From Acidobacteriota bacterium (lineage in GTDB: Bacteria > Acidobacteriota > Vicinamibacteria > Vicinamibacterales > UBA2999): a stretch of DNA of 64,000 bases. This document shows positions 12,940 to 38,594 of the stretch, piece after piece; within the stretch, counting starts at the first letter, position 1; every line of letters begins with the position of its first letter. Location: NCBI GenBank assembly GCA_016789705.1, contig JAEUQR010000005.1, positions 1 to 64,000 on the forward strand, in the 5' to 3' direction. The notes below the pieces were generated by a model. The model was not told the DNA's origin, did no database searches, and saw nothing but the letters and a program-made list of their open reading frames with translations. The position numbers were made by a program, and so were the translations under genes.

Positions 12940-15009
12940 TCAGCGCCCGGCGGACGCGGTGACGGCCAGCCACTCGCCGACGAGCTCGGCATGGCGGCCC
13001 TCTGCCTGCACGTAGCGCTGCGCGAGCGCCGCGAAGCGTTCCCGCGCCGCCGGTGCGGTCATGGCGGCATCCCCGGCCACGGCGCCGGCAAAGAGGGCGT
13101 GCATCACGAGGAAGTCGTGCTCCGGCCCCGCGGCCCCGGCCGGTGCGGCGTCGAGCACCCGCAGGGCATCGCCGGGCCGCCGTGTGGCGATGTAGGTGGC
13201 GGCGAGGGCGCGTCGGGCGGCGGCGTTCCCCGGCTGTGAGTCGAGGGCCGCGGTGGCCATCGCCGCGGCGCGGGCCACGTCCCCCTGGCGCATGTAGGCG
13301 TCGATGAGCAGCGTCGCCACGACGTCGTCGTCGATGCCGCCCTCGCGCGCCTGGTTCCAGGCGGTTACGGCCGCTTTGTCGTCGCCGCCGAGGGCGTAGG
13401 TGGCGCCGAGCATCAGCAGCACCGGCGCCGACGGCGCTCCGAGGCTCGCGGCCTGCGTGAGCTGCGAGGCGACCGACCGCGCCGAATCGCCGAGGCCGTA
13501 GAGCCCGAGACCGAGCAGCGCCTGCGCCACCGGCCGCTCGGCCGCGACCGTCGTGTCCACGCGCAGCAGATCGGAGAACCGGCCCGACTCCACCGCCGCG
13601 AGGGCCCGGGCGAGCGGCTCGGAGGGCGCCGGCGGCGCCAGCGCCCGGCTGATGGCGTGGAGCGTGGCCGGTGCGAGCACGCTGTCGCGGCGGAACGCCT
13701 GGCCCGGCGTGGGCGCCTCGCGCAGAAGACTCGCCGGCGTTCCGGTAATCTCGAACGTGGCGGTGCGCGAGGTCTGGCGGCCGCCCAGGCGGTCGGTCGC
13801 GATCACCTCGATCGTGTAGCGCCCGCGCGCGAAGGTCGTGAGCGGCATCTGCAGCGCCGCGAAGAGCGGGTGGCCGCTGGCCACGTCGAAGTCCACCGGC
13901 AGCGTGGCGGCGCTGTGGTGCTGCACTGGCAGCGAGCCGACGAGCTGCGGACGCCCAGCCACCTCGCGCGAGACGCGGAAGGCGACATCCACGTCGGGCT
14001 TGCCGGCGGGGCCGCCCGAGGGGTTGATGACCTGCACGACGACCGACAGCGGTTCATCGACGCGAAACCGCGTGTCGCGCGCCGGCGTCGTCTCGAGCGC
14101 GCCGATGGCGTACGGATGCGCGCCCTGTTGATCGACGGGGTACGGCGATTCGAGCGTACGCACGGCATCAGCCAGCACGACGTCGCTCAGCGCAAATTCG
14201 CTGCGGTTCGCGGCCGGCAGCGACAGGCGCCGCGTGATGACGCGGACGGCCGGCGCCTTCGCGCTGCCGGGTTCGGCCCAGCCGATGTAGACGTCGTAGT
14301 CGCCGGGGCCGGTCGTGATGCCGCGTTCGATGAGCAGGCCGCGGGCGGCGGGCCCGAGCACGCTCTTCACGTCGAAGTCCTCGAAGGCGTGCAGCGAGCT
14401 CACCGGACTGTTGGCGCGCGACTCGAGGTCGGCCCGCCGCTGCTTCTCGCGCGCCTCGCGGTCGCGCCGGGCCCGTTCGCGCTCCATGTCCTGGAGACGC
14501 AGCGCATTCGACGCGTCGTTGGCGGCCACTATCGCCTGGCTGCCGGCGAGCATCGCCGCTCCGCCAACCGGGATTTCGCCCTGCGGCACGCTCATCGACT
14601 TCATCGCCCGCATCGGCAGCGGATCGCCGCGCAGCCCCTGCAGCCAGTCCATGACCGCCGACCGCGGCGGCGCGAGCAGCGTCTCACCGCCGACGCGACG
14701 CAGGGCGAGGCGCACGTAGATCGTGGCAGGCGCGGTCGGCGCCGGCACCTCCGGGACCTCGGCCCGCAGGGCCACGTAGTGTGAGCCGTCCGAGGCGCGC
14801 AGCACGTGGGACAGCCACGTCGCCTCGACGCGCGGCGCCTCGGGGGCGCCGGCGGCCACGCGGTCGACGGCAGCCACGACCGCCTCGAGGAGGGTGCGCT
14901 GGGACTTGTTGAGGCGAGGGGCGGCAGACTGCGCCTGTACCGGCAACGCGCCGGCGAGAAGAACACTCAGCGCGGCCAGAGCAGCGGCGAGCCGATGGGG
15001 GGCGAACAT
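12940..15009 (-). CDS. Secreted protein with Ig-like and TPR regions, function unknown
   Basis: The 689-residue protein has a signal peptide (LAAALAALSVLLAGALPVQAQ). A charged coiled-coil patch of about 25 residues rich in Arg and Glu (MERERARRDREAREKQRR) lies near residue 190. Beta-sandwich-like repeats follow (about 210-440, including RYTIEVIATDRLGG). The C-terminal half has TPR-like helices (about 480-680, RPGDALRVLDAAPAG). I do not recognise a catalytic domain. It lies 63 bp downstream of the TolC-like gene on the same strand and may be the last gene of the export operon, which makes it a possible cargo or periplasmic accessory. ATG 15009 is preferred to a GTG at 15036 because it gives a normal signal peptide. 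Confidence 0.65.
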   Translation of the reverse strand: MFAPHRLAAALAALSVLLAGALPVQAQSAAPRLNKSQRTLLEAVVAAVDRVAAGAPEAPRVEATWLSHVLRASDGSHYVALRAEVPEVPAPTAPATIYVRLALRRVGGETLLAPPRSAVMDWLQGLRGDPLPMRAMKSMSVPQGEIPVGGAAMLAGSQAIVAANDASNALRLQDMERERARRDREAREKQRRADLESRANSPVSSLHAFEDFDVKSVLGPAARGLLIERGITTGPGDYDVYIGWAEPGSAKAPAVRVITRRLSLPAANRSEFALSDVVLADAVRTLESPYPVDQQGAHPYAIGALETTPARDTRFRVDEPLSVVVQVINPSGGPAGKPDVDVAFRVSREVAGRPQLVGSLPVQHHSAATLPVDFDVASGHPLFAALQMPLTTFARGRYTIEVIATDRLGGRQTSRTATFEITGTPASLLREAPTPGQAFRRDSVLAPATLHAISRALAPPAPSEPLARALAAVESGRFSDLLRVDTTVAAERPVAQALLGLGLYGLGDSARSVASQLTQAASLGAPSAPVLLMLGATYALGGDDKAAVTAWNQAREGGIDDDVVATLLIDAYMRQGDVARAAAMATAALDSQPGNAAARRALAATYIATRRPGDALRVLDAAPAGAAGPEHDFLVMHALFAGAVAGDAAMTAPAARERFAALAQRYVQAEGRHAELVGEWLAVTASAGR

Positions 15010-15072
15010 GTGGAACCTGCGGAGGCGCGAGTTCACGTTACCACGCGCGGCCGGGCTCCGGGGCGGTGGCGA

Positions 15073-16485
15073 TCAGGGCGGCGGCAGCCGGTCGAGCACG
15101 CGGCCCGTGGCCCGGTCGAGGCGCGCCAGGGCCTTCTCGTAGTCCGTGTGGGCGCGGACATCGCGCACGGCGGCATCCGCCGCCGCCAGCTCGCGCAGAT
15201 TGACGAGGAACTGCGTCGAGTCGCCGAGGTCGAACTTGTCGCGCTCCAGCCGTTCGAGTTCGCGCGCCACCGCCACTTCATCTGCCACGGCCTCGCGGAC
15301 CGTCGCCGCAGCCCGCACGGCGCTCAGCGCGTCCTGCACCTCGGCGCGCACCTGGTCTTCGGCCCAGCGCAGGTCGAGATCCGCGCGCGCCAGTGCCGCC
15401 TGCGCCTTGAGCGTCTGGCCGATGGCCTTGCGGCGCTGCACGGGCAGCTTGAAGGTGAGGCCGACCTCGAAGGACGTGCCGCCCTTGGTGGACTCGCGAC
15501 GCTCGCGGCCCACTTCCGAGAAGAAGTCGAGCGTCGGCAGCTGCGTGTTCTCGGCGAGGCGCACGTCGACCCGCTGCCGGTCGCGGGCGAGTCGGCGGGC
15601 CTGCACGTCGGGCCGTCGGGCCAGCGCGCCGGCGACTTCCTCCGCTTCATCGGGCTCGGCGCCGGCGGACGTCGCTGGCAGCGGCGGCAGCCGGTCGAGC
15701 GACGGGCGCAGTGGCGCGCCGTCCGCGCCGCGGTAGTAGAGCGACAGGTCGATGGCCGCCTGCTCGAAGAGCCGCTGCGCGCTGGCCAGCGCCGAGCGGC
15801 GCTGGAAGATCGCGCGCTGGTTGTCGGTGCGCTCGATCGCGGCAATCTGCCCGAGCGCCACGGCATCCGCCAGCTGCGTGTCGCGCACTTCGGCCAGCGT
15901 CAGCAGGGCGCGCGCCACCGACAACTGGCGGCCGGCCGCCACCCAGTCCCAGTAGGAGGCAAGTGCCGCTGTGAAGTGGCCCAGGCGCGCGGCGTCGAGT
16001 TGCCGCGCTGCCCGTTCCACGCCGATTTCGGCCGTGGCCGTGCCGGCGCGGCGTTCGTCGATGGCGCGCCCGCGCAGCAGCGGCACTTCGAGCCCGGCCA
16101 GCACCTCGCCGCTGCCAGTGGTCTCGGCCTTGCCGTCGTAGTCGGCGAACGTGCCGCTGCCGGCCCGGTAACCGCCGTAGGCAGTGGCGCCCCAGGTCGT
16201 GAGCGGCTGCTCGAACAGCGTCGACAGGCGCGTGTTGTCGTACTCGCCGTCGAGGCGGCTGCCTGATGCCTTCAGGTTGAGGTCGAACCCACCGCGCGCG
16301 CTCACGAGATCGGCGGCGGCGGCATCGACGTCGCGCCGCGCCTGCTCGATGAGCGGCAGCGCGCGATCGACGGCACGCAGCACGTCCTGCGGCGTCAGTG
16401 GCTCCTGCGCGTTCGCCGGCGGGGCCGGCGCGACGAGCGCCAGCACCAGGCCCGCCGCGATGACAAGGAGGCGGCGCGCCGTCAT
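15073..16485 (-). CDS. TolC-family outer-membrane efflux protein
   Basis: The 470-residue protein has a signal peptide (about residues 1-27, ending PPANAQE). The two alpha-helical barrel repeats of the outer-membrane efflux family follow: long Ala/Arg/Leu helices with a connecting beta strand (FDLNLKASGSRLDG) and a second copy after TLDFFSEVGRERR. It would form the outer-membrane channel of the tripartite exporter encoded by the two upstream genes. ATG 16485 overlaps the adaptor stop by 4 bp (ATGA), which indicates translational coupling; the longer frame to 16680 lacks a signal peptide and lies inside the adaptor gene. Confidence 0.9.
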   Translation of the reverse strand: MTARRLLVIAAGLVLALVAPAPPANAQEPLTPQDVLRAVDRALPLIEQARRDVDAAAADLVSARGGFDLNLKASGSRLDGEYDNTRLSTLFEQPLTTWGATAYGGYRAGSGTFADYDGKAETTGSGEVLAGLEVPLLRGRAIDERRAGTATAEIGVERAARQLDAARLGHFTAALASYWDWVAAGRQLSVARALLTLAEVRDTQLADAVALGQIAAIERTDNQRAIFQRRSALASAQRLFEQAAIDLSLYYRGADGAPLRPSLDRLPPLPATSAGAEPDEAEEVAGALARRPDVQARRLARDRQRVDVRLAENTQLPTLDFFSEVGRERRESTKGGTSFEVGLTFKLPVQRRKAIGQTLKAQAALARADLDLRWAEDQVRAEVQDALSAVRAAATVREAVADEVAVARELERLERDKFDLGDSTQFLVNLRELAAADAAVRDVRAHTDYEKALARLDRATGRVLDRLPPP

Positions 16486-17837
16486 GGCGTGTCCTTTTCT
16501 TCGCTGGAGCTGCTCTTGCTGTCGCTCCTGGCCTCGCCGCCCTTGGTCGGTTCGGTCATGCCGACGATCGGCGGGAAGCCGTTGAACTGCCGCCACAGCT
16601 CGTAGCCGACGGGCACGACGTTCAGGAGCACCCAGCCGTTGGCCCGCACGCCCTGGCGCAGGAAACGCGACGAGGGCCACGCCTCGTCGGCCGGATCCGG
16701 TTCGACCAGCACGCGGAAGCGCCCCTGGCCGTTGTCGGTCGCATCCACGTTCAGCACCTTGCCGCCGAAGGTGCCCACCGCAATCGACGGCCAGCCCGAG
16801 AACTGCAGCGCCGGCCAGCCTTCGAACTGCAGCCGCACCCGGCTGCCCGTCGACACCATCGGCATGTCGTTGCCGTCGATCCAGATCTCGACCACGTCCT
16901 TCGTGGAGGCGGGCACGATGACGGCCAGGGCTTCGCCGGCCTTCAACAACTCGCCGCTGCGGCGTCCCACCACGCGCAGCACGGTGCCGTCGATAGGGGC
17001 GGTGACGCGCTGCGTCTGCTGGCGCGACAGCCGCACGTCCATCTTGGCGAGTTCGGCGCGTGCCTTGGCGGCGTCGCTGCGGCCCGAGGCCATCTGCGCG
17101 CGCGCTTCGTCGACGCGGGCCCGCGCCTCGGCCAGGGTGCGCTGCAGCTCGGCGGCGAGCGACGCCGCCTCACTTCGTGCCGCGTTGAGCGTCGCCACGG
17201 CGCGCTCGACCTCGGCGGCGCGCGTGGCCATTTCCATCTGGGCGAGCTCGACGTTGCGGGTGGAGGTCAGCCCCTTGGCGATGAGCGCCTTCTGGCGATC
17301 GAGATTGAGCGTCGCGGCGGTGTTGGCGGCGTCGGCCGCCGTGACGGACCGTTCGGCCGCGGTGACGCGATCGCGCGCCATCTGCTCGCGCAGTTTCGCC
17401 GCCTCGACGCTCGTCTCCTGCGTGAGCTGCAGCTCGCGGATGCGGTCGCCGAGCGACGTCACGCGCATGTCGGCCTGTTCGATCGTGAGCTGCACCTGCG
17501 CGCGTTCGGCGGTCAGGCGGTCGAGAATCGCCGGGTCGTTGTCGACCAGATCCACGATCGGATCGCCGGCCTTGACCACCGACCCTTCCACCACGTGCCA
17601 GGTGGCGACCCGGCCGTCCACCAGGGCCTGCACCTCCTGCGGCCGCTCCTCGGGGCTGAAGGCGATGACGCGCCCCGTCCCGGGGATCGTCTGCTGCCAC
17701 GGCGTCACCACCAGGGCCACGGCCGTCAGCACGATGAGCACGACCAGCAGCCGCGCGAGCAGCCGGGCCGAGCGTGGAGCATGGATGCCATGCAGGGCCA
17801 GGCGGTGATCCATCTGCCAGCCGGAACCGGACGTCAT
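16482..17837 (-). CDS. HlyD-family membrane-fusion adaptor
   Basis: The 451-residue protein has one transmembrane segment (about residues 28-46) and a biotinyl-lipoyl half-motif (VDGRVATWHVVEGSVVKAGD). A long coiled-coil hairpin follows (about 110-275), then the second lipoyl half (APIDGTVLRVVGRRSGELLKAG) and beta-barrel domains. It bridges the inner-membrane ABC protein and the TolC channel. The C-terminus is an unusual Ser/Lys/Glu-rich tail (SDSKSSSSEEKDTP). It overlaps the ABC gene and the TolC gene by 4 bp each, so the three are surely co-transcribed. Confidence 0.9.
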   Translation of the reverse strand: MTSGSGWQMDHRLALHGIHAPRSARLLARLLVVLIVLTAVALVVTPWQQTIPGTGRVIAFSPEERPQEVQALVDGRVATWHVVEGSVVKAGDPIVDLVDNDPAILDRLTAERAQVQLTIEQADMRVTSLGDRIRELQLTQETSVEAAKLREQMARDRVTAAERSVTAADAANTAATLNLDRQKALIAKGLTSTRNVELAQMEMATRAAEVERAVATLNAARSEAASLAAELQRTLAEARARVDEARAQMASGRSDAAKARAELAKMDVRLSRQQTQRVTAPIDGTVLRVVGRRSGELLKAGEALAVIVPASTKDVVEIWIDGNDMPMVSTGSRVRLQFEGWPALQFSGWPSIAVGTFGGKVLNVDATDNGQGRFRVLVEPDPADEAWPSSRFLRQGVRANGWVLLNVVPVGYELWRQFNGFPPIVGMTEPTKGGEARSDSKSSSSEEKDTP

Positions 17838-19981
17838 CGCGTCACCTCCTCACGAATCTCGCCGTCGTGGAGTCGCACGACCCGGGAGCACTGCGCCAGC
17901 ACGTCAGGCCGTTCGGTGATGCAGACGACCGTCCACGGCGCGGAAGGGTCGAAGATGATGGCGTCGAGCCGGGCCCGCTCCTCGGGCTGATCGATGGTGT
18001 CGAGGGCGCCGTCGATGACGAGGAGCCGAGGCCGGGCGACCACGGCACGGGCGATCATCAGTCGGCACGCCTGGCGGTGCGACAGGGGACGGCCGTGTGG
18101 GGTGAGCACGGTGTCGAGGCCCTGCGGCAGGCGCAGCAGTTCGTCGAGCAGGCCGACGCCGGCGAGCGCCGCGGTGACGTCGCCATGGCTCACGCCTGGA
18201 CGCCCGAGCCGCACGTTGTCGAGCACGGTGCCGGGAAAGAGTTCGACGCCGCGCACGAGGCCGACGGCGGAGCGCAGTGTCGCAAGCGGCAGGTCGCGCA
18301 CGTCGACGCCGTCCACGCGCACGGCGCCGGCCGAGGTCGAGCGCAGTCCGAACAACACGTCGGCGAGCGTGCTCTTGCCCGAGCCATTCGGGCCGGTGAC
18401 GCCCACGTGTTCGCCCGGCGCGAGCGACCACTGCCGCACGCTGAGCGCCGCACGGGTACCATCCGGATACCGCACCTCGACATCGCGCATCTCGATGGCG
18501 AGCGCGCCGGTGCCGGGGAGCGTCGCCTCGCCGCCGGCGCGCTCGAGCGGCAGATCGATGAGGTCGCCGAGCTTGTCGATGGCCGCCGACAGGTCGTAGA
18601 AGACCTCGAGCTGTTTGCCGAACTTCGTGAAGGCGCTCATCATCAGCGTGACCACGAGTTCACTCGCCACCAGCTGCCCGAGCGTCAGCTGGCGGTCGAT
18701 GACCAGGAAGCCGCCGATGCCGAGCAGGGCGGAACTGGCGGTGGCCTGCAGCGCGAACGACCCGAGCACCTGCCGGATCAGGATCTTGAAGTGTTTGGTG
18801 CGGTAGTCGAGGTAGTCCTCGAGCAGGCGGCGCGAGCGCTCGGTGGCGAACGCCGGCGCGCCGGCCGACTTGAACGTGACCAAGTGCGCGGCGATCTGCT
18901 CGAGCCACGCCTCGAGCGCGTACTTGGCCTTCGATTCCTTGATGGCCGTGCTCACGGCGCCCCGGCCGAGCACGAAGACGATGAAGAGCATCGCGCTCAC
19001 GAGGAAGACGTCGAAGGCGAGCAGGAACGGGTGGTAGACGGCGAGCAGCACCATGCCGATCGAGGTCTGCATCAGGATGCTGAGGCCGTCGATGAGCAGC
19101 AGCGCCGCCGACTTCTGCACGGTCACCGTGTCGAAAAATCGGTTGACCAGTTCGGGGCCGTGATAACGGTCGAAGGCGTCGGCGCGGACGCGCAGCAGCC
19201 GCCAGGTGACGTCGGTGGCGACGCGCGCGAAGATGCTCTTCTGGATGATTTCGACGACGGCCGCGCGCAGCGCGTTGAGCGCCGTGGAGAAGCCGAGGGC
19301 GACGAAGACCACCAGCATCAGCACGGCCAGCGGCTGCAGCAGTGAGCCGAAGGCGATGGTGTTGACGAGCAGCTGCACGGCAATCGGCACGACCAGCGAC
19401 AGCAGTCCGATGACGGCCGAGTAGACCACCGCCACCCACAGCGTGCGGCGTTCGGCGCCGAGCAGCGCGCGGATACGCGAGAACGGTTCGCGGCGAGTGT
19501 CGGTCGAGGCCGAGCGCATGCCGGCGAGCGGCGCGGCGGGCTCGGCGAGCAGCCACTCGGTGACGTCGTGGTCGCCGGCGACGCCCAGCCACGCCCGCAG
19601 ACTGGCGAGCGACCAGCGGCCCGGCCGATCGTGGGCGCCGGGCACGGCCACCCGGGCGCCGCCGCGCTGGCGGTCGAGCACGGCAATGGCGTCGGTGTCG
19701 CCGGCCGCCGTCTGGCGCACGGCTACCCAGGGCATGGCCGGGTCGGCGTCGTCGACCACTTCCTTGAGCGAGCGGCGCACGCGGGCCACGGCCAGGCCCG
19801 CCTCGGCGGCGAAGATGTTGATGGCGCCGGTGACGTCTGGTGGCGGCGTCGAGGCGGCCAGGCGCCGGGCCGTGGCGTCGAGCGCGTCGTGGTCGTAGAC
19901 GACGCCATGGGCGCCGGCGAGCAGCTCGACGACGGCGCGTGCCTGGAGGAGCGATGGCGGCGTGGACGGTGGATGCGGCAT
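17834..19981 (-). CDS. PCAT/HlyB-like ABC exporter with degenerate ATPase motifs
   Basis: The 715-residue protein has an N-terminal region (about 1-125) like a C39-peptidase-like domain, without the catalytic Cys. A six-helix permease domain (about 165-450) and a nucleotide-binding domain follow. Walker A is intact (GPNGSGKST, about 526-534). Other ATPase motifs are not: the Q-loop position reads LVRGVELF with no Gln, the signature is LSHRQ instead of LSGGQ, Walker B is LLVIDGALD with Gly in place of the catalytic Glu, and the H-loop is CITERPD with Glu in place of His. Some exporter clades share the altered Q-loop and signature, but loss of both Glu and His is unusual. ATG 19981 is chosen because the upstream TTG at 20059 lies before the predicted transcription start. 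Confidence 0.85.
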   Translation of the reverse strand: MPHPPSTPPSLLQARAVVELLAGAHGVVYDHDALDATARRLAASTPPPDVTGAINIFAAEAGLAVARVRRSLKEVVDDADPAMPWVAVRQTAAGDTDAIAVLDRQRGGARVAVPGAHDRPGRWSLASLRAWLGVAGDHDVTEWLLAEPAAPLAGMRSASTDTRREPFSRIRALLGAERRTLWVAVVYSAVIGLLSLVVPIAVQLLVNTIAFGSLLQPLAVLMLVVFVALGFSTALNALRAAVVEIIQKSIFARVATDVTWRLLRVRADAFDRYHGPELVNRFFDTVTVQKSAALLLIDGLSILMQTSIGMVLLAVYHPFLLAFDVFLVSAMLFIVFVLGRGAVSTAIKESKAKYALEAWLEQIAAHLVTFKSAGAPAFATERSRRLLEDYLDYRTKHFKILIRQVLGSFALQATASSALLGIGGFLVIDRQLTLGQLVASELVVTLMMSAFTKFGKQLEVFYDLSAAIDKLGDLIDLPLERAGGEATLPGTGALAIEMRDVEVRYPDGTRAALSVRQWSLAPGEHVGVTGPNGSGKSTLADVLFGLRSTSAGAVRVDGVDVRDLPLATLRSAVGLVRGVELFPGTVLDNVRLGRPGVSHGDVTAALAGVGLLDELLRLPQGLDTVLTPHGRPLSHRQACRLMIARAVVARPRLLVIDGALDTIDQPEERARLDAIIFDPSAPWTVVCITERPDVLAQCSRVVRLHDGEIREEVTR

Positions 19982-20045: not shown

Positions 20046-20075
20046 AGTATACGCGACAAAAAAATCGTGAGTCAA
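20046..20075 (-). promoter_or_regulatory. Sigma70-type promoter of the export operon
   Basis: On the reverse strand, TTGACT (20070-20075), an 18-nt spacer containing seven consecutive T, and TATACT (20046-20051) form a near-consensus promoter. Transcription would start near 20039, leaving a leader of about 58 nt before ATG 19981. Confidence 0.7.
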
Positions 20076-20105: not shown

Positions 20106-20459
20106 ATGGCGAAGCATTCCGGTGCGTCGAAGTGGACGTTCCTGACCAACCACGGCCATGTCCTGCTGTGTCTCGCCCAGAGCTCCGGCCTGCGGCTGCG
20201 CGATGTGGCGGCGCAGGTCGGCGTCACCGAGCGGGCCGTGCAGCGCATCGTGGCCGACCTCGAGAATGGCGGGTACCTCAGGCGGCGGCGCAGTGGACGC
20301 CAGAACGTCTACGAGATCGACTTCGAGCAGCCGCTGCGGCATCCCGTGGAGTCGCACCACCGGGTCGGCGAGCTCATTGCGTTGTCGGTCGAAGAGGAGC
20401 CGCGGGCGCCGCGCCGGCGGCCGGCGCGCGCCGGCGCGAAGCGAGCCACCGGTCGCTAG
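20106..20459 (+). CDS. Small winged-helix regulator (MarR-like)
   Basis: The 117-residue protein has a winged helix-turn-helix at about residues 10-75: helices LLCLAQSSGLRLRDVAAQVG and TERAVQRIVADLENGGYL, then a wing RRRRSGRQNVYEID. The tail is basic and Arg/Pro-rich. Proteins of this size and sequence type occur as stand-alone HTH regulators in bacteria and archaea. It is divergent from the export operon and is the obvious candidate to bind the inverted repeat between them. A TAGGCT hexamer 7 nt before the ATG and the lack of a Shine-Dalgarno suggest a leaderless mRNA. The next 105 bp to the tRNA gene show nothing recognisable. Confidence 0.85.
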   Translation: MAKHSGASKWTFLTNHGHVLLCLAQSSGLRLRDVAAQVGVTERAVQRIVADLENGGYLRRRRSGRQNVYEIDFEQPLRHPVESHHRVGELIALSVEEEPRAPRRRPARAGAKRATGR

Positions 20460-31917: not shown

Positions 31918-34422
31918 ATGGCCACACTTGGCGCTGTCCTGCTCCTGTCGGCGTTCGTGATCTCCGCCTATGCGGCGGCCGCCTCGGTTGTCGGTGCCCG
32001 CCGCCGCAACACCCGCCTCGTCGAAAGCGGCGTCGGCGCGCTCTATCTCGTGGCCGCCGTGATGACGGTGGCCTCCGGCGTCATCGTCCACGCCTTCGTC
32101 GTCGGCAACTACAGCATCAAGTACGTGCAGCGCTACTCCGAGAGCGCGCAGCCGCTCGGCTACAAGCTGGCGTCCTACTGGGGCGGCCTCGACGGCTCGG
32201 TCATGTTCTGGGTGTTCCTGCTGTCGCTCTTCGGCGCGGCGGCCGTGCGGATCAACAAGGAGCGGCATCGGGAGCTCATCCCGTATGTCGTCGCGACGCT
32301 GAGCGTCGTGCAGATGTTCTTCCTGTTCCTGATGATCGCGCACAACAACCCGTTCGCGACCTATCTCACCGACGCGCCGCGCGCCGGCGCCGGCCTGAAT
32401 CCGCTGCTCCAGAACTTCTACATGGCCATCCACCCGCCCACGATGTATCTGGGCTTCGTCGGGATGACCATTCCGTTCGCCTTCTGCATCGCGGCGCTCG
32501 TCACCGGGCATCTCGACGACAGCTGGCTGCGCGCCGTGCGCCGCTGGACGATGGTGTCGTGGTTCTGCCTGTCGCTCGGCCTCACGCTCGGCATGATCTG
32601 GGCCTACGAGGAACTCGGCTGGGGCGGCTTCTGGGGTTGGGATCCGGTCGAGAACGCGGGCCTGCTGCCGTGGTTCACGGCCACCGCCTTCCTGCACTCG
32701 GTGATGGTGCAGGAGCGGCGCGGCATGCTGCGGGTGTGGAACGTCACGCTCGTCATCGTCACGTTCTTCCTCACGCTCTTCGGCACCTTCATGACGCGCT
32801 CGGGCGTCGTGCAGTCGGTGCACGCCTTCGGGGAAGACAAGCAGCTCGCCATGATGTTCATGGTGTTCATGAGCGTGCTGCTCATCTTCAGCTTTGGCTG
32901 GGTGATCTACCGGCTGCCGCTGCTCAAGGCGCGCAACGAGCTCGATTCCTGGGCCTCCAAGGAAGCGGCGTTCCTCGCCAACAACTGGGTGCTGCTGTTC
33001 TCGGCGCTCTTCGTGCTCTTCGCCACTATGTTCCCGACCATCACGGAGGCGATTACCGGTGAACGGCTCACGGTGGGGCCGCCGTTCTTCAACACCTGGA
33101 TGACGCCGGTGGGCCTCATCCTGCTGCTGCTCACCGGCATCGGCCCGCTGCTCGCGTGGCGGTCGTCGTCGCTGGCCGCGATGCTGCATCAGTTCCGCTG
33201 GCCGATTCTGTCCGGCATCGGCGCCGGCGCGCTGACCCTCGCGCTCGGCATCCGCGTGTGGAGTTCGGGCCTCTGCTTCGCGTTCAGTGGCTTCGTGCTC
33301 GGCACGATCGTGCAGGAGTTCGTACGCGGCGCCGCCGTGCGCCGGACCTCCACGGGCACCGACCTCCTCACGGCGATGATCGGCCTCGTCAGCCGCAACA
33401 AGCGGCGCTACGGCGGCTACATCGTGCACGTCGGCATCGTGCTCATGTTCATGGGCTTCGCCGGCGAGGGCTTCGGCCGCGACGAGCAGGCGCTGCTCAA
33501 GCCGGGACAGACGGTGCAGGTCGATCGCTACGTGCTGCGGCTCGACAGCATCCGCGCCACGGATGACGACCAGAAGCAGATGGTCACGGCGCACGTCACG
33601 GTGATGGACACGGCGGGGAAGACCCTGGGCACGATGTATCCGGCCAAGTGGTTCTACCGCAGCCGACCGCAGGAGCCCACGACGGAGGTGGCCATCCAGC
33701 GCTCGCTCGCCGAAGACCTCTATATCGTGATGGCGGCGTTCGAGCTGGGCGAGCAGTCGGCCAGCGTGGAAGTGCACGTCAACGAACTGGTCAACTGGAT
33801 CTGGATCGGCTTCGGTCTGATGGCGCTCGGCACGGGCATCGCGCTCCTGCCCGAGACGGTCTTCGCCATGGCCGGCGCCCGCGTGGGGGCCGAAGCCGCC
33901 GCCACGCTGCTGCTCATCGGCGTGCTGCTCACGCCGGCCGGCCTGCACGCGCACACGATGCAGGAGCCGGCGGCGTCCACCCCGGCACCCGCGAGCGGCA
34001 CGCTCGTGTTCCGCTCGGCGCTCGAACGTGAACTCGCCAACGAGGTCATGTGCACCTGCGGCTGCCGGCTGCCGGCCGGCACGTGCGGCATGACCAACTG
34101 CGAGGGCAAGGCGTCGCAGCTCGCGAAGATCAAGACGCTCGTCGACGAAGGCAAAGATCGCGACGCCGTGCTCGCCAGCTTCGTGCAGGAGTTCGGCGGC
34201 CAGCACATCCTGGCGCGCCCGCTCGACGAGGGCTACCACAAGCTGCTGTGGCTGCTCCCGTACACCCTGGCCGGTCTCTCTGCCCTGGGGCTCGCGTTCA
34301 TCGCGCGCCGCTGGGCGGCGGGCCGCAGCGACACCGCGCCGGTCGGGGCCTCGGCCGCCGTGGCCGGTGTGGACCCCAGCCTCCGGCAGCAACTCGACGA
34401 TGAACTCCGCGACCTCGACTGA
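31918..34422 (+). CDS. CcmF-CcmH fusion, cytochrome c haem lyase
   Basis: The 834-residue protein joins two normally separate components. Residues about 1-640 are CcmF, with many membrane helices and the haem-handling WWD-type motif WGGFWGWDPVENA. Then comes a signal-peptide-like helix (LLLIGVLLTPAGLHA, about 660-680). A CcmH domain follows (about 700-770) with the thiol motif as CTCGCRLPAGTCGMTNC, and a final membrane helix. The leftover signal-like helix suggests that two genes fused by loss of a stop. Together the parts would receive the apocytochrome and attach haem from CcmE. The CcmH cysteines are a CxCGC variant rather than LRCxxC. Confidence 0.9.
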   Translation: MATLGAVLLLSAFVISAYAAAASVVGARRRNTRLVESGVGALYLVAAVMTVASGVIVHAFVVGNYSIKYVQRYSESAQPLGYKLASYWGGLDGSVMFWVFLLSLFGAAAVRINKERHRELIPYVVATLSVVQMFFLFLMIAHNNPFATYLTDAPRAGAGLNPLLQNFYMAIHPPTMYLGFVGMTIPFAFCIAALVTGHLDDSWLRAVRRWTMVSWFCLSLGLTLGMIWAYEELGWGGFWGWDPVENAGLLPWFTATAFLHSVMVQERRGMLRVWNVTLVIVTFFLTLFGTFMTRSGVVQSVHAFGEDKQLAMMFMVFMSVLLIFSFGWVIYRLPLLKARNELDSWASKEAAFLANNWVLLFSALFVLFATMFPTITEAITGERLTVGPPFFNTWMTPVGLILLLLTGIGPLLAWRSSSLAAMLHQFRWPILSGIGAGALTLALGIRVWSSGLCFAFSGFVLGTIVQEFVRGAAVRRTSTGTDLLTAMIGLVSRNKRRYGGYIVHVGIVLMFMGFAGEGFGRDEQALLKPGQTVQVDRYVLRLDSIRATDDDQKQMVTAHVTVMDTAGKTLGTMYPAKWFYRSRPQEPTTEVAIQRSLAEDLYIVMAAFELGEQSASVEVHVNELVNWIWIGFGLMALGTGIALLPETVFAMAGARVGAEAAATLLLIGVLLTPAGLHAHTMQEPAASTPAPASGTLVFRSALERELANEVMCTCGCRLPAGTCGMTNCEGKASQLAKIKTLVDEGKDRDAVLASFVQEFGGQHILARPLDEGYHKLLWLLPYTLAGLSALGLAFIARRWAAGRSDTAPVGASAAVAGVDPSLRQQLDDELRDLD

Positions 34423-35044
34423 TCCCGGGCTCCGGCCCTGGCAGTTGTTCCTCCTGGCGGGCATGCTCGCCGCCACCGCCGTTGTGCTCGTGTCCTCGGG
34501 CCAGACGATGTCGAGCGTGGTCGTGCTGAGCGCGACCGTGGTGGCCTCCAGTCTCGTGGCCGTGGCCGGCTATCGCTCGCTCGCGCCGCTCTCCGCGGCG
34601 CCGGACGAAACCGCCGACGCGCCGGTGGCCGGCCGCGCGCGCGCCGCCCTCGAACGCGAGAAGGCGCTCGTGCTGCGCACGATCAAGGAGCTGGAGTTCG
34701 ATCACGCGATGGGGAAGACCGCCACCGCGGAGTTCGAAGACATGCGCGATCGCCTCAAGTTGCGCGCCGTCGGCCTGATGCGCCGTCTCGAGGGCAGCGA
34801 CTACCGCGCCGCGGTCGAACGCGAACTGGCCGCGCGCACCGCGCCGTCGGCGCGAGCGTCCGCACCCGCGCGAGCCATCGCACCCGCGGCGGCGCCCGAC
34901 GCCGACGTGACGGGGACCACCGCGCCCGTCACCGCGGTGCCCTCGACGCTGGCACGCGTCTGCGGCGGCTGCGGCGGGGTGAACGACGTGGACGCACGCT
35001 TCTGCAAACACTGCGGCGCCTCGATCGCCGGGGCGGCATCATGA
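34400..35044 (+). CDS. CcmI-like membrane protein with C-terminal zinc ribbon
   Basis: The 214-residue protein has two N-terminal membrane helices (about 14-30 and 35-53). A coiled coil with the CcmI-like signature RTIKELEFDHAMGKTATAEF follows at about 85-125, then an Ala/Pro linker and a zinc ribbon CGGCGG...CKHCGA at about 188-207. It overlaps the ccmF-H gene by 23 bp and the next gene by 4 bp, so it is translationally coupled. It may present apocytochrome or organise the ligase; a zinc ribbon is not part of classical CcmI. Confidence 0.75.
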   Translation: MNSATSTDPGLRPWQLFLLAGMLAATAVVLVSSGQTMSSVVVLSATVVASSLVAVAGYRSLAPLSAAPDETADAPVAGRARAALEREKALVLRTIKELEFDHAMGKTATAEFEDMRDRLKLRAVGLMRRLEGSDYRAAVERELAARTAPSARASAPARAIAPAAAPDADVTGTTAPVTAVPSTLARVCGGCGGVNDVDARFCKHCGASIAGAAS

Positions 35045-36261
35045 AACAGCGGTGTGTAGGCGGCCTCGTGGCCGCGTGCCTCCTGAGCCTCGCGTTCGGG
35101 CAGGTGGCGATGGCCCAGGTGGCGATGCCGGATGCCCGGCAGATGTCGGGCGTGCCGCTGCCGGCGACCGAACTCCCCGACGGCACCGTGACGGTGCGCG
35201 TCGTGCGCGAGCGGATGGGGAACAACGTTCCTGACCAGGACGTGCGCCTCACGACGCCCGACGGCACGGTCACCGCGGTGACCGACGCGCAGGGCCGCGC
35301 CGAGTTCACGAGCGTGACCGTCGGCAGCCAGGTGACGGCCGAGACGGTCATCGACGGCGAGACGCTCCGCTCGCAGCCATTCACGGTGCCTGCCAAGGGC
35401 GGCGTGCGCGTGGCGCTCGTCGGCGGCGCCGCCAGGGTGGCGGCGGCCGAGGCGCAGGCGAACGAGGCGGCTGCACAGGGGCCGGCGCGCACCGGCGCGG
35501 TCGTCTTCGGACCCGACACCCGCATCGTCCTCGAGTTCCAGGACGACGAGCCGACCTTCTTCTACATCTTCAGCATCGTCAACAACGCCCGCACGCCGGT
35601 GAACCCCGTGAAGCCGCTCGTGCTCACGCTGCCCGGCGACGCCGAGGCCGCCGCGCTCGTGTCGGGCCCGCCCGGCATCGCGCGGGTGGCCGACGGCGCG
35701 CTCACGCTGTCGGGGCCATTCCCCCCGGGGCAGACGGCCTTCCAGATCGCGTTCCGTCTGCCGCTGGCCTCCACGCTGCACATCGCACAGCGGTGGCCGG
35801 CGCCGGTCGAAGGGGTCCTCGTGGCCACCGAGAAGGCTGGCGCGCTCACGCTCTCAAGTCCGCAGCTCTCGGGTGTGCGCGAGGGGGATTCGAACGGCCA
35901 GGTATTCATCGTCGGCACCGGCGGCCGCCTGGCCGAAGATCAGGTGCTCGACATCACGTTCGCGAACGTGCCGGCGCCGCCGGCGTGGCCGTTCTGGACG
36001 GCCGTCGGCGTCATGGGCGCGGGGCTGCTGTGGGTGGGCTGGGCGCTGCTCGGTCCGGCGGCCGACCGCTCGCGCGATGCCCGGGCCCTGCTCGCCGAAC
36101 GGGAGCGGCTGCTCGGTGCCATCGCTGCGCTCGACGCAGAGGCGCGCGCGAAAGGCGACGACCCGAAACGCGATGCCAAGCGGGAGCGCCTCATGGCGGC
36201 CGTCGAACAGGTTTACGCGCAGCTCGACGACGCGGCCGGCGGCGCGGGAACCGCGGCGTGA
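35041..36261 (+). CDS. Membrane-anchored protein with regulatory-like beta domain and coiled coil
   Basis: The 406-residue protein has a signal peptide (LLSLAFGQVAMAQ). A carboxypeptidase-regulatory/Ig-like beta region follows at about 40-120 (GTVTVRVVRER, TDAQGRAEFTSV), then a second beta-rich domain. A single membrane helix (WPFWTAVGVMGAGLLWVGW, about 315-335) precedes a cytoplasmic coiled coil with RERLLGAIAALDAEA. It sits inside the ccm operon with 4-bp overlaps on both sides, so a role in cytochrome maturation is likely, but I know no named Ccm component of this shape. Function unknown. Confidence 0.7.
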   Translation: MKQRCVGGLVAACLLSLAFGQVAMAQVAMPDARQMSGVPLPATELPDGTVTVRVVRERMGNNVPDQDVRLTTPDGTVTAVTDAQGRAEFTSVTVGSQVTAETVIDGETLRSQPFTVPAKGGVRVALVGGAARVAAAEAQANEAAAQGPARTGAVVFGPDTRIVLEFQDDEPTFFYIFSIVNNARTPVNPVKPLVLTLPGDAEAAALVSGPPGIARVADGALTLSGPFPPGQTAFQIAFRLPLASTLHIAQRWPAPVEGVLVATEKAGALTLSSPQLSGVREGDSNGQVFIVGTGGRLAEDQVLDITFANVPAPPAWPFWTAVGVMGAGLLWVGWALLGPAADRSRDARALLAERERLLGAIAALDAEARAKGDDPKRDAKRERLMAAVEQVYAQLDDAAGGAGTAA

Positions 36262-36962
36262 GCGACTTCGACAGCGTGACCGCCGACGGCGTCGGCCGGC
36301 ACTACGGCCGCCGCCGCGCCCTGACGAACATCTCGTTCACGGCCCGCGCCGGTGACATCGTCGGGCTGCTCGGTCACAACGGCGCCGGCAAGAGCACGCT
36401 GCTCTCGATCCTCGGCACGCTGCTTGCGGCCTCGACCGGCACGGTGCGCTACGGCGGTGTGACGAGCGCGGCGGCCGGGGCGGCACTGCGGGCGCGCATC
36501 GGCATGCTGGGCCACGATCTCTTCCTCTATCCCGAACTCTCCGCGCGCGAGAATCTCGTGTTCTTCGGCCGCCTCTACGACATGCCCGACGCGGTGAGGG
36601 CGGCCGACGCCGCGCTCGAACGGGCCGGACTCGGCGCGCGTGCCGATGACCTGGTGTCGTCGTTCTCGCGCGGCATGCGGCAGCGCGTCGCACTCGAGCG
36701 CGCGCTCCTGCACGGGCCGCGGCTGCTGCTGCTCGACGAGCCCTTCACCGGGCTCGATCAGGCCTCCGCGGCCGCACTGGTCGGCCGGCTCCGCGAGGAG
36801 CAGGCGCGCGGTGTCGTCACGGTGCTCGCCACTCACGACCTCGACGTCGTGGACGGCCTGCTGAGCGAGGTCGTGTTCCTGCAGGGCGGAAAGCGCGTGG
36901 CGGCGCCGGCGTCGTCCGGTTCCCTCCGCGACCGTTACCGCGAGGCGATGCACGCGTCATGA
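36258..36962 (+). CDS. ccmA: CcmA, ATPase of the haem-handling ABC complex
   Basis: The 234-residue ABC ATPase has Walker A GHNGAGKST, signature FSRGMRQRVALERAL, Walker B LLLLDEPFTGLD and H-loop TVLATHDLD, all intact. With CcmB, C and D it drives release of haem-loaded CcmE. The start is GTG 36258, overlapping the previous stop (GTGA); the frame is open much further upstream but lies inside the preceding gene. Confidence 0.92.
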   Translation: MSDFDSVTADGVGRHYGRRRALTNISFTARAGDIVGLLGHNGAGKSTLLSILGTLLAASTGTVRYGGVTSAAAGAALRARIGMLGHDLFLYPELSARENLVFFGRLYDMPDAVRAADAALERAGLGARADDLVSSFSRGMRQRVALERALLHGPRLLLLDEPFTGLDQASAAALVGRLREEQARGVVTVLATHDLDVVDGLLSEVVFLQGGKRVAAPASSGSLRDRYREAMHAS

Positions 36963-37642
36963 AGGCGTTCCTCCGTGTCGCCGCCCTCGTCGTGCGCAAG
37001 GACCTGACGGTCGAGGTGCGCAGCCTCGAAGTGGTCTCGACCACGCTCTTCTTCGCCGTCACGGTCGTGCTCATCTTCGCGTTCGGGTTCGTGCGGGAAG
37101 GGGTGCCGACGGACGGCGTGGCGGCGGCGATCCTGTGGATCACGGTGGCCTTCTCCGGTACGCTCGCCCTCGGCCGCACCTTCGAGCGCGAACGCCAGGC
37201 CGATACCCTGCGCGCGCTGATGCTGGCGCCGGCCGACCGGCCGGCGCTCTATGCCGGCAAGCTGGTCGGGATGCTGCTCCTCATGGCGCTGGTCGAGCTC
37301 ATCCTGGTGCCGCTCGTCGGCCTGCTGTTCCAGGCGCCGATCTTCCGGGCGCCGCTCCGGCTCGCCGGTCTGCTCGCCGCCGGCACGCTCGGCTTTGCCG
37401 CCATCGGCACGCTCTTCGCGGCCATGCTCGTGCGCGCCAGGAGCCGCGACGTGCTGCTGCCGGTGCTGTTGTATCCGATGACGGTTCCGGTCATGATTGC
37501 CGGCGTGCGGGGGACGGCGGCGCTGTTCCAGCCGCAGCCCGATGCCGGCATGGCGCAGTTCTGGTTCGCGCTGCTGGTGTTCTTCGACGTGGTGTTCGTG
37601 ACGCTGGCGCTCTGGACGTTCGAACCCCTGATGACGGACTGA
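36959..37642 (+). CDS. ccmB: CcmB, permease of the haem-handling ABC complex
   Basis: The 227-residue protein has six membrane helices and the CcmB pattern: LVVRKDLTVEVRS at the N-terminus, SGTLALGRTFERERQ, and LLPVLLYPMTVPVMIAG. Its ATG overlaps the ccmA stop by 4 bp. Confidence 0.92.
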   Translation: MKAFLRVAALVVRKDLTVEVRSLEVVSTTLFFAVTVVLIFAFGFVREGVPTDGVAAAILWITVAFSGTLALGRTFERERQADTLRALMLAPADRPALYAGKLVGMLLLMALVELILVPLVGLLFQAPIFRAPLRLAGLLAAGTLGFAAIGTLFAAMLVRARSRDVLLPVLLYPMTVPVMIAGVRGTAALFQPQPDAGMAQFWFALLVFFDVVFVTLALWTFEPLMTD

Positions 37643-37677
37643 CCGGACGCGCCACCGCAGGAACGAAAGAGGACGAC

Positions 37678-38337
37678 GTGACCACCGCTGTCAAAGCGCA
37701 ACTCGGAATCGCGGCGCTGATGTTCGCGGCCTCGCCGTGGGTGATTAATGCCGCGCCGCACGAGGCCACGATGGGTCTCGTCTACAAGATCTACTTCTAC
37801 CACATGCCCTCGGCGTGGATGTTCATGCTGGCGGCCATCGTGGCCGGCGTCGCCAGCGCGCGCTTCCTCTTCACGAAGCGTCAGGCGTCGGATGCCACGG
37901 CGGTGGCGGCGGCGGAACTCGCCGTGGTCTTCGGGCTGCTGGCGCTCGTCACCGGGCCGCTCTGGGCACGCAAGGCGTGGGGCGTCTGGTGGGTGTGGGA
38001 CGCCCGCCTCACCTCAAGCCTGATGCTCTTTCTCATCTTCGTGGCCTATCTGCTGCTCAGGCAGTTCGGTGGCCCGGGCTCCGAGAAGCTGTCGGCCGGC
38101 CTCGCGCTCTTCGGGATGGCCAACGTGCCGTTCATCTACGTGTCGGTGAACTACTGGCGCACGCTGCATCCGAAGACGTCGGTCGTGCCCACGCTGCCGG
38201 TCGAGATGGGGCGGCCGTTGTGGTTCTGCGTCACGGCATTCCTGCTGCTGTTCCTGGCGCTGCTCTCGCTCCGCGCGACACTCGAAAGACACCGTACGCG
38301 GATCGACGCTCTCTATCTGTCCCACGACGAGGCGTGA
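37678..38337 (+). CDS. ccmC: CcmC, haem-delivery protein
   Basis: The 219-residue protein has six membrane helices and the haem-binding tryptophan motif GVWWVWDARLTSSLM. Conserved His residues lie in YFYHMPSAW and TLHPKTS. It loads haem onto CcmE. GTG 37678 follows AGAGGA at a good distance, 35 bp after the ccmB stop. Confidence 0.9.
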   Translation: MTTAVKAQLGIAALMFAASPWVINAAPHEATMGLVYKIYFYHMPSAWMFMLAAIVAGVASARFLFTKRQASDATAVAAAELAVVFGLLALVTGPLWARKAWGVWWVWDARLTSSLMLFLIFVAYLLLRQFGGPGSEKLSAGLALFGMANVPFIYVSVNYWRTLHPKTSVVPTLPVEMGRPLWFCVTAFLLLFLALLSLRATLERHRTRIDALYLSHDEA

Positions 38338-38594
38338 TGCGATACCTTCGACTGCTGTTCATCGTGACGCTGCTCGCCGTGCCCGTCGTGGGCGCGGCAC
38401 AGCAGACGCCGTCGCCCGACGAGTTCGTCCCGATTTCCGAGATCCCGGCCGAGGAGCAGATCCCGGCCATCAACCTCGTGGCTGCGGCCTATGCGTTCGT
38501 GTGGGTGGCGCTCTTCGGGTACGTGTGGTCGCTCGGGTCGCGGCTCGGAAAGGCCGAAGCGGATCTGACGCGTCTCGAACGGAAGGACTCCTGA
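38337..38594 (+). CDS. CcmD-like small membrane protein with signal peptide
   Basis: The 85-residue protein has an N-terminal hydrophobic segment (LLFIVTLLAVPVVGAAQ) and a second helix (NLVAAAYAFVWVALFGYVWSL) followed by SRLGKAEADLTRLE. That helix with a charged tail is the CcmD pattern. CcmD helps release holo-CcmE from CcmABC. The extra signal peptide makes it longer than the usual 50-70 residues. ATG overlaps the ccmC stop (TGATG). Confidence 0.75.
   Translation: MRYLRLLFIVTLLAVPVVGAAQQTPSPDEFVPISEIPAEEQIPAINLVAAAYAFVWVALFGYVWSLGSRLGKAEADLTRLERKDS

Follow-up and report, generated by a model that had tools for sequence, protein, structure and literature searches.

Type I secretion exporters (HlyB, LssB and PrtD; TIGR03375, TIGR01846 and TIGR01842) are built from an N-terminal domain, a transmembrane domain (TMD) and a nucleotide-binding domain (NBD), and are encoded in an operon with a HlyD-type adaptor and a TolC-type channel. 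MacAB-TolC and EmrAB-TolC also combine an inner-membrane transporter with an adaptor and an outer-membrane channel. EmrB is an MFS protein. MacB is described as an active ATPase of a different fold (PMC5985334). Unlike the family that we report here, neither of them is an ABC exporter with a lost engine.

Replaced catalytic residues are found in TAP, CFTR and other exporters with one degenerate site, in which the Walker B Glu and further catalytic letters are changed and the other site is kept consensus through an intact partner NBD (review PMC7756269). The membrane domain of an ABC exporter without any NBD has been studied in LmrA-MD and MsbA-MD (PMC2704374, PMC4979069), which are artificial truncations of single-component pumps. 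LmrA without its NBD performs ethidium-proton and ion-coupled transport, and the E314A substitution in TM6 abolishes its pH-gradient dependence (PMC2704374). MsbA without its NBD shows pH-gradient-dependent ethidium export (PMC4979069).

A three-gene export operon in an acidobacterial genome

We analysed a stretch of 64,000 nucleotides (the window) from an Acidobacteriota bacterium (contig JAEUQR010000005.1). On the minus strand, an open reading frame of 716 codons including the stop (17834-19981, ATG at 19981) encodes an ABC-type exporter subunit of 715 aa. Pfam profiles recognise both folds of the ABC exporter superfamily in this protein, the NBD through PF00005 ABC_tran (E 1.7e-18, 68 bits, cut-off 25) and the TMD through PF00664 ABC_membrane (E 3.2e-9, 37.3 bits, cut-off 28). 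Downstream on the same strand lie intact genes for a HlyD-type periplasmic adaptor of 451 aa (16482-17837) and a TolC/OEP-type outer-membrane channel (15073-16485). The start of the adaptor gene overlaps the stop of the exporter gene, and the start of the channel gene that of the adaptor gene, each time as ATGA, which makes translational coupling of the three genes probable, as an earlier reading of the sequence alone had noted. ABC protein, adaptor and channel are encoded together as in type I secretion systems, and the exporter shares with the type I exporters its domain order and a collinear TMD of equal length. However, its best match among the type I secretion NCBIfam models, at 209.5 bits, falls far below the cut-off of 693.1 (TIGR03375).

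Upstream of the operon is a promoter-like TTGACT-18-TATACT element (20046-20075, minus strand), a consensus match made by eye only, and a gene for a small winged-helix (MarR-like) regulator is divergent from the operon (20106-20459, plus strand). An ArsR-type HTH gene adjoins the operon in related genomes, identified by Pfam in G012, G038, G199 and G210 and by similarity in G090 and G139. The presence of HTH regulator genes at these operons suggests that their expression is ligand-regulated.

Just downstream of the channel gene is a gene for a TPR-containing protein (12940-15036, minus strand), followed by one for a VWA-domain protein of the Acidobacteria-specific family TIGR03436 (11650-12939, plus strand, 168 bits). 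Further away, a cluster on the plus strand (31918-38594) looks like a cytochrome c maturation locus, with CcmF-like, CcmA-like ABC ATPase and CcmC-like genes. An open frame of 523 aa antisense to the exporter gene (17774-19345, plus strand) is most likely a by-product of high G+C.

Lost catalytic residues in a maintained NBD

The pseudo-NBD occupies residues 495-715 of the exporter (17837-18499; all coordinates in this section are on the minus strand). Its Walker A motif, GPNGSGKST, is intact (18368-18394; the Lys is K536). The Q-loop region LVRGVE, within GLVRGVELF, has no Gln (18242-18259), and the signature reads LSHRQ in place of LSGGQ (18071-18085). The Walker B motif LLVIDG, within LLVIDGALD, keeps its Asp but has Gly for the catalytic Glu (18008-18025), and in the H-loop region CITERPD the His is replaced by Glu (17903-17923). 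The sequence-only reading had reported each of these motifs correctly, and the frame lies at the coordinates that it gave. A domain that has lost its general base, H-loop switch, Q-loop Gln and signature glycines would not be expected to hydrolyse ATP at any useful rate.

These changes are common to a whole clade. The exporter gene is present in 7 of 149 genomes sampled from the class, the window's own included, in one copy each and in four genera counting that of the window. The six orthologues are 64-92% identical to the window protein: two belong to the same genus (92%), one to another genus of the family (66%) and three to other parts of the order. The orthologue of G038, at 64% identity, lies on a single-contig genome; several members of the wider family described below, including that of the window, come from assemblies of more than one contig. 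In all seven clade proteins the Walker B Glu is replaced by Gly, the H-loop His by Glu or Asp, and no Gln is found in the Q-loop; all of them (7/7) retain Walker A and the Walker B Asp. The signature varies between LSHRQ, LSYRQ, LSFRQ, LSQGQ and LSSRQ.

Within the genus, dN/dS is lowest in the TMD (0.04-0.05), intermediate in the NBD (0.09-0.13) and highest in the N-terminal domain (0.16-0.23). This shows that the NBD is under purifying selection and is maintained despite the loss of its catalytic residues. Taken together with the clade-wide distribution of the changes, it rules out recent decay, a pseudogene or a sequencing error, in agreement with the earlier view that the gene is not decaying. 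It had been asked of the homologues whether only this strain is changed; the Glu/Gly and His/acidic replacements are instead found throughout the clade. A non-hydrolysing or very slow ATPase, also proposed earlier, is the best reading of such conserved losses. Of these two, a slow but real ATPase would rely on its preserved Walker A and Walker B Asp and on some other residue in place of the general base, and its cycle would pace or gate export. The conservation of Walker A and of the Asp in 7/7 clade members and the selection on the NBD speak for it; the joint absence of Glu, His, Gln and the signature glycines speaks against it, and so do the more distant relatives described below.

The other two domains evolve at different paces. 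The TMD (residues 168-482; 18536-19480) is the most conserved part of the protein, with 80-81% identity to G012 and G038, and the N-terminal cytosolic domain (residues 1-163; 19493-19981) is the fastest-evolving part. The latter is related to the same domain of Bacteroidota and spirochaete family members (hhalign E 6.8e-6). The sequence-only reading had pointed to PCAT-like clades, some of which are known to have altered Q-loop and signature motifs; however, in a comparison with four canonical exporters hhalign detected no resemblance of the N-terminal domain to C39-type domains (E 0.25, with small profiles that leave room for a distant similarity), and Pfam gave no match, so that a C39/PCAT identity is without support. 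AlphaFold models based on three near-identical alignment rows, one for the whole protein and one for its N-terminal domain, had too low a confidence to be used (mean pLDDT 36.8 and 52.1).

A wider family with and without an NBD

A tblastn search of plasmid records returned a group of Persicobacter and sphingomonad sequences that scored above the mass of ordinary exporters, and in annotated sphingomonad plasmid records the exporter lies in the same ABC-HlyD-TolC operon. A cultured relative with the three genes is Novosphingobium aromaticivorans DSM 12444 (SARO_RS19820 to SARO_RS19810). We defined the family by its membrane domain and found further members by searching with a TMD profile. This identified members in other Acidobacteriota classes (5/149 genomes of the phylum, besides the window's own), in Pseudomonadota (5/299 genomes) and in Spirochaetota (5/100); the Bacteroidota members come from plasmid records only. 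Altogether, the family spans at least four phyla. One Riemerella "plasmid" record, L060 (NZ_CP081938.1, 16409-29989), carries rplU, murB and rsmI and is probably a piece of chromosome.

Most family members share a distinctive first intracellular loop, ELxNRFFDxxxxQKS. In a TMD tree a long branch with 100/100 support carries the whole family as a single clade, apart from type I secretion, NHLM, PCAT and MsbA-like exporters; this separate position, the loss of catalytic NBD residues and the absence of detectable C39 similarity set it off from the type I exporters. In the literature that we searched, which was limited to open-licence papers, we found no description of the family, and it is apparently undescribed. 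Exporter, adaptor and channel occur together in the 31 loci surveyed, with the exporter and adaptor as a single gene in G642 and the contig of G003 ending before the channel gene. The adaptor is highly conserved (profile E values down to 1e-183). These loci have no other conserved neighbour, substrate or accessory gene, with the exception of HTH genes, ArsR-type or MarR-like, close to some of the operons in Acidobacteriota.

We then compared the catalytic residues across the family. Among 35 members with a readable NBD, the H-loop His is lost in 31, and in 26 of these the catalytic Glu as well; roughly half have no Walker A. Read from motif columns that depend on the alignment where the NBD has strongly diverged, the 31 non-intact members have the His in 0/31, the Glu in 5/31, all three catalytic letters in 0/31 and a Lys in the Walker A Lys column in 16/31, several of the latter without the rest of the P-loop. 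By comparison, all three letters are found in 8/9 canonical control exporters, the ninth sequence being cut. Sphingomonad members have no recognisable P-loop, and many spirochaete members lack a usable one.

Walker A, Glu and His are all kept in 4 of the 35 members (G199, G210, G240 and G265, from one Acidobacteriota family), which have the signature LSRGQ and no Q-loop Gln. These relatives, whose operon is the same, may still work as ATPases, and some descendants may keep a slow ATP cycle. In the TMD tree a well-supported grouping inside the family joins the four intact members to the Bacteroidota members; with this nesting, the ATPase has probably been lost at least twice. No bootstrap tree placed all catalytically lost members in a single clade, but the AU test did not reject such a clade (p 0.173). 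The bootstrap trees favour two or more losses, which in view of the AU test we do not claim as proven.

The end point of this series is found in five genomes of one spirochaete lineage, which encode a direct fusion of membrane domain and adaptor that has no NBD at all. In G642, a single contig of 4.38 Mb, a frame of 765 aa comprises the TMD (residues 31-330) and then the adaptor (351-757, E 1e-171), and is followed by the channel gene; an NBD profile finds nothing above noise at this locus. Four further genomes of the class carry the fusion, 68-87% identical to that of G642 and in one case cut by the contig end, and their fusion loci have no NBD match either. The fused TMD has a dN/dS of about 0.04 between the two closest fusions, with dS near saturation, and is under strong constraint. 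ICL1 and ICL2, the cytosolic loops that carry the coupling helices, are each exactly 33 residues long in 36/36 other members compared, whether or not their NBD is a pseudo-NBD. In the four complete fusions ICL1 measures 24-28 residues and ICL2 26-29, and the transmembrane segments keep the same length. Such shortening is expected if no domain docks at these loops, be it in cis or in trans; the normal length elsewhere is expected if the pseudo-NBD of the window protein still docks. With the NBD absent or devoid of a P-loop in these relatives, the common function of the family needs no hydrolysis. The membrane domain, adaptor and channel are kept in every member, and the ATPase is dispensable in the family. 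The P-loop-free members and the five genomes without an NBD make a slow ATPase in the window exporter unlikely.

The same comparison bears on whether catalysis could be supplied by a partner ABC ATPase acting in trans, as a heterodimer subunit or a borrowed NBD. Degenerate sites of the TAP and CFTR kind have an intact partner, whereas here both sites would be degenerate in a homodimer, and some relatives have no NBD at all. The genome does contain dozens of other ABC_tran matches, one of them in the window near 36.3 kb. This last one is a CcmA-like gene among the cytochrome c maturation-looking genes, and we rejected it as a partner. Moreover, no second ABC gene is conserved beside the operon, in the window or among the 31 loci compared, and given the altered signature a heterodimer would still be without a canonical site. 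The coupling loops shortened in the NBD-less fusions are the opposite of what an NBD in trans would need. We consider such a partner very unlikely, and the second ATPase subunit that the sequence-only reading offered as one option is not borne out. That reading holds for the absence of decay and for a non-hydrolysing or very slow ATPase, and lacks support for the second subunit and the PCAT likeness; the scale of the family and its NBD-less members had escaped it.

Energy source and role of the pseudo-NBD

We think it quite likely that the operon specifies a tripartite exporter of ABC descent in which canonical ATP hydrolysis has been lost, and that the pseudo-NBD here would be a docked structural or nucleotide-sensing part. 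An inner-membrane ABC-fold protein, presumably a homodimer, would work with the HlyD-type adaptor and the TolC-type channel, within a family that appears to be losing, or to have lost, ATP hydrolysis as its power source. The pseudo-NBD would dock on the membrane domain through the coupling loops of normal length, and may bind ATP through its Walker A and Walker B Asp. Judging from the motifs, it would not hydrolyse ATP, although some residual hydrolysis may persist with these two elements in place. It would more likely serve as a structural clamp or a nucleotide-sensitive gate than as an engine.

The force behind export through the TMD would in that case be the substrate gradient or the proton-motive force, as with NBD-deleted LmrA and MsbA. 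The analogy makes a proton-motive drive plausible, and passive, gradient-driven export is equally open. Like the engineered proteins, the spirochaete fusions have the membrane domain of an ABC exporter without an NBD, but they are natural and belong to a tripartite system. A candidate proton-coupling residue is Glu441, at the start of TM6 (codon at 18659-18661, minus strand). A Glu occupies this position in 40/40 family rows, and none of 9 canonical exporters has an acidic residue there. The four members with intact NBDs have this Glu too, and so it did not arise with the loss of the ATPase. Counted from the Walker A Lys (K388 in LmrA, K536 here), Glu441 lies about 20 residues further N-terminal than LmrA E314; a correspondence between the two and a role of Glu441 in coupling are both speculative.

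The invariant Glu also bears on a non-transport role, in which the membrane domain would merely anchor or assemble the adaptor-channel complex, or act as a sensor. The direct fusion of TMD and adaptor and the strong conservation of the adaptor would fit such a role. However, the TMD is the most conserved part of the exporter, including predicted membrane residues and the TM6 Glu, none of which a mere anchor would need, and we give this explanation hardly any credence.

Returning to an exporter freed from canonical ATP hydrolysis, a bolder proposal, which we hold tentatively and at somewhat less than even chances, is that ABC-fold tripartite exporters include a natural lineage whose transport, once ATP-driven, is now ion-coupled (secondary-active) or driven by a gradient, with the invariant TM6 Glu in the coupling site. 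Several of the genes carry only the annotation "ABC transporter ATP-binding protein", a misleading label for this family. The ability of an ABC exporter TMD to do ion-coupled work without its ATPase has so far been argued mainly from engineered LmrA and MsbA. Here, a natural family is graded from an intact NBD to a pseudo-NBD, a P-loop-free NBD and no NBD, all in one three-gene setting. NBD-free ion coupling is thereby open to direct test, and the family illustrates how a primary pump could come to run on another source of energy.
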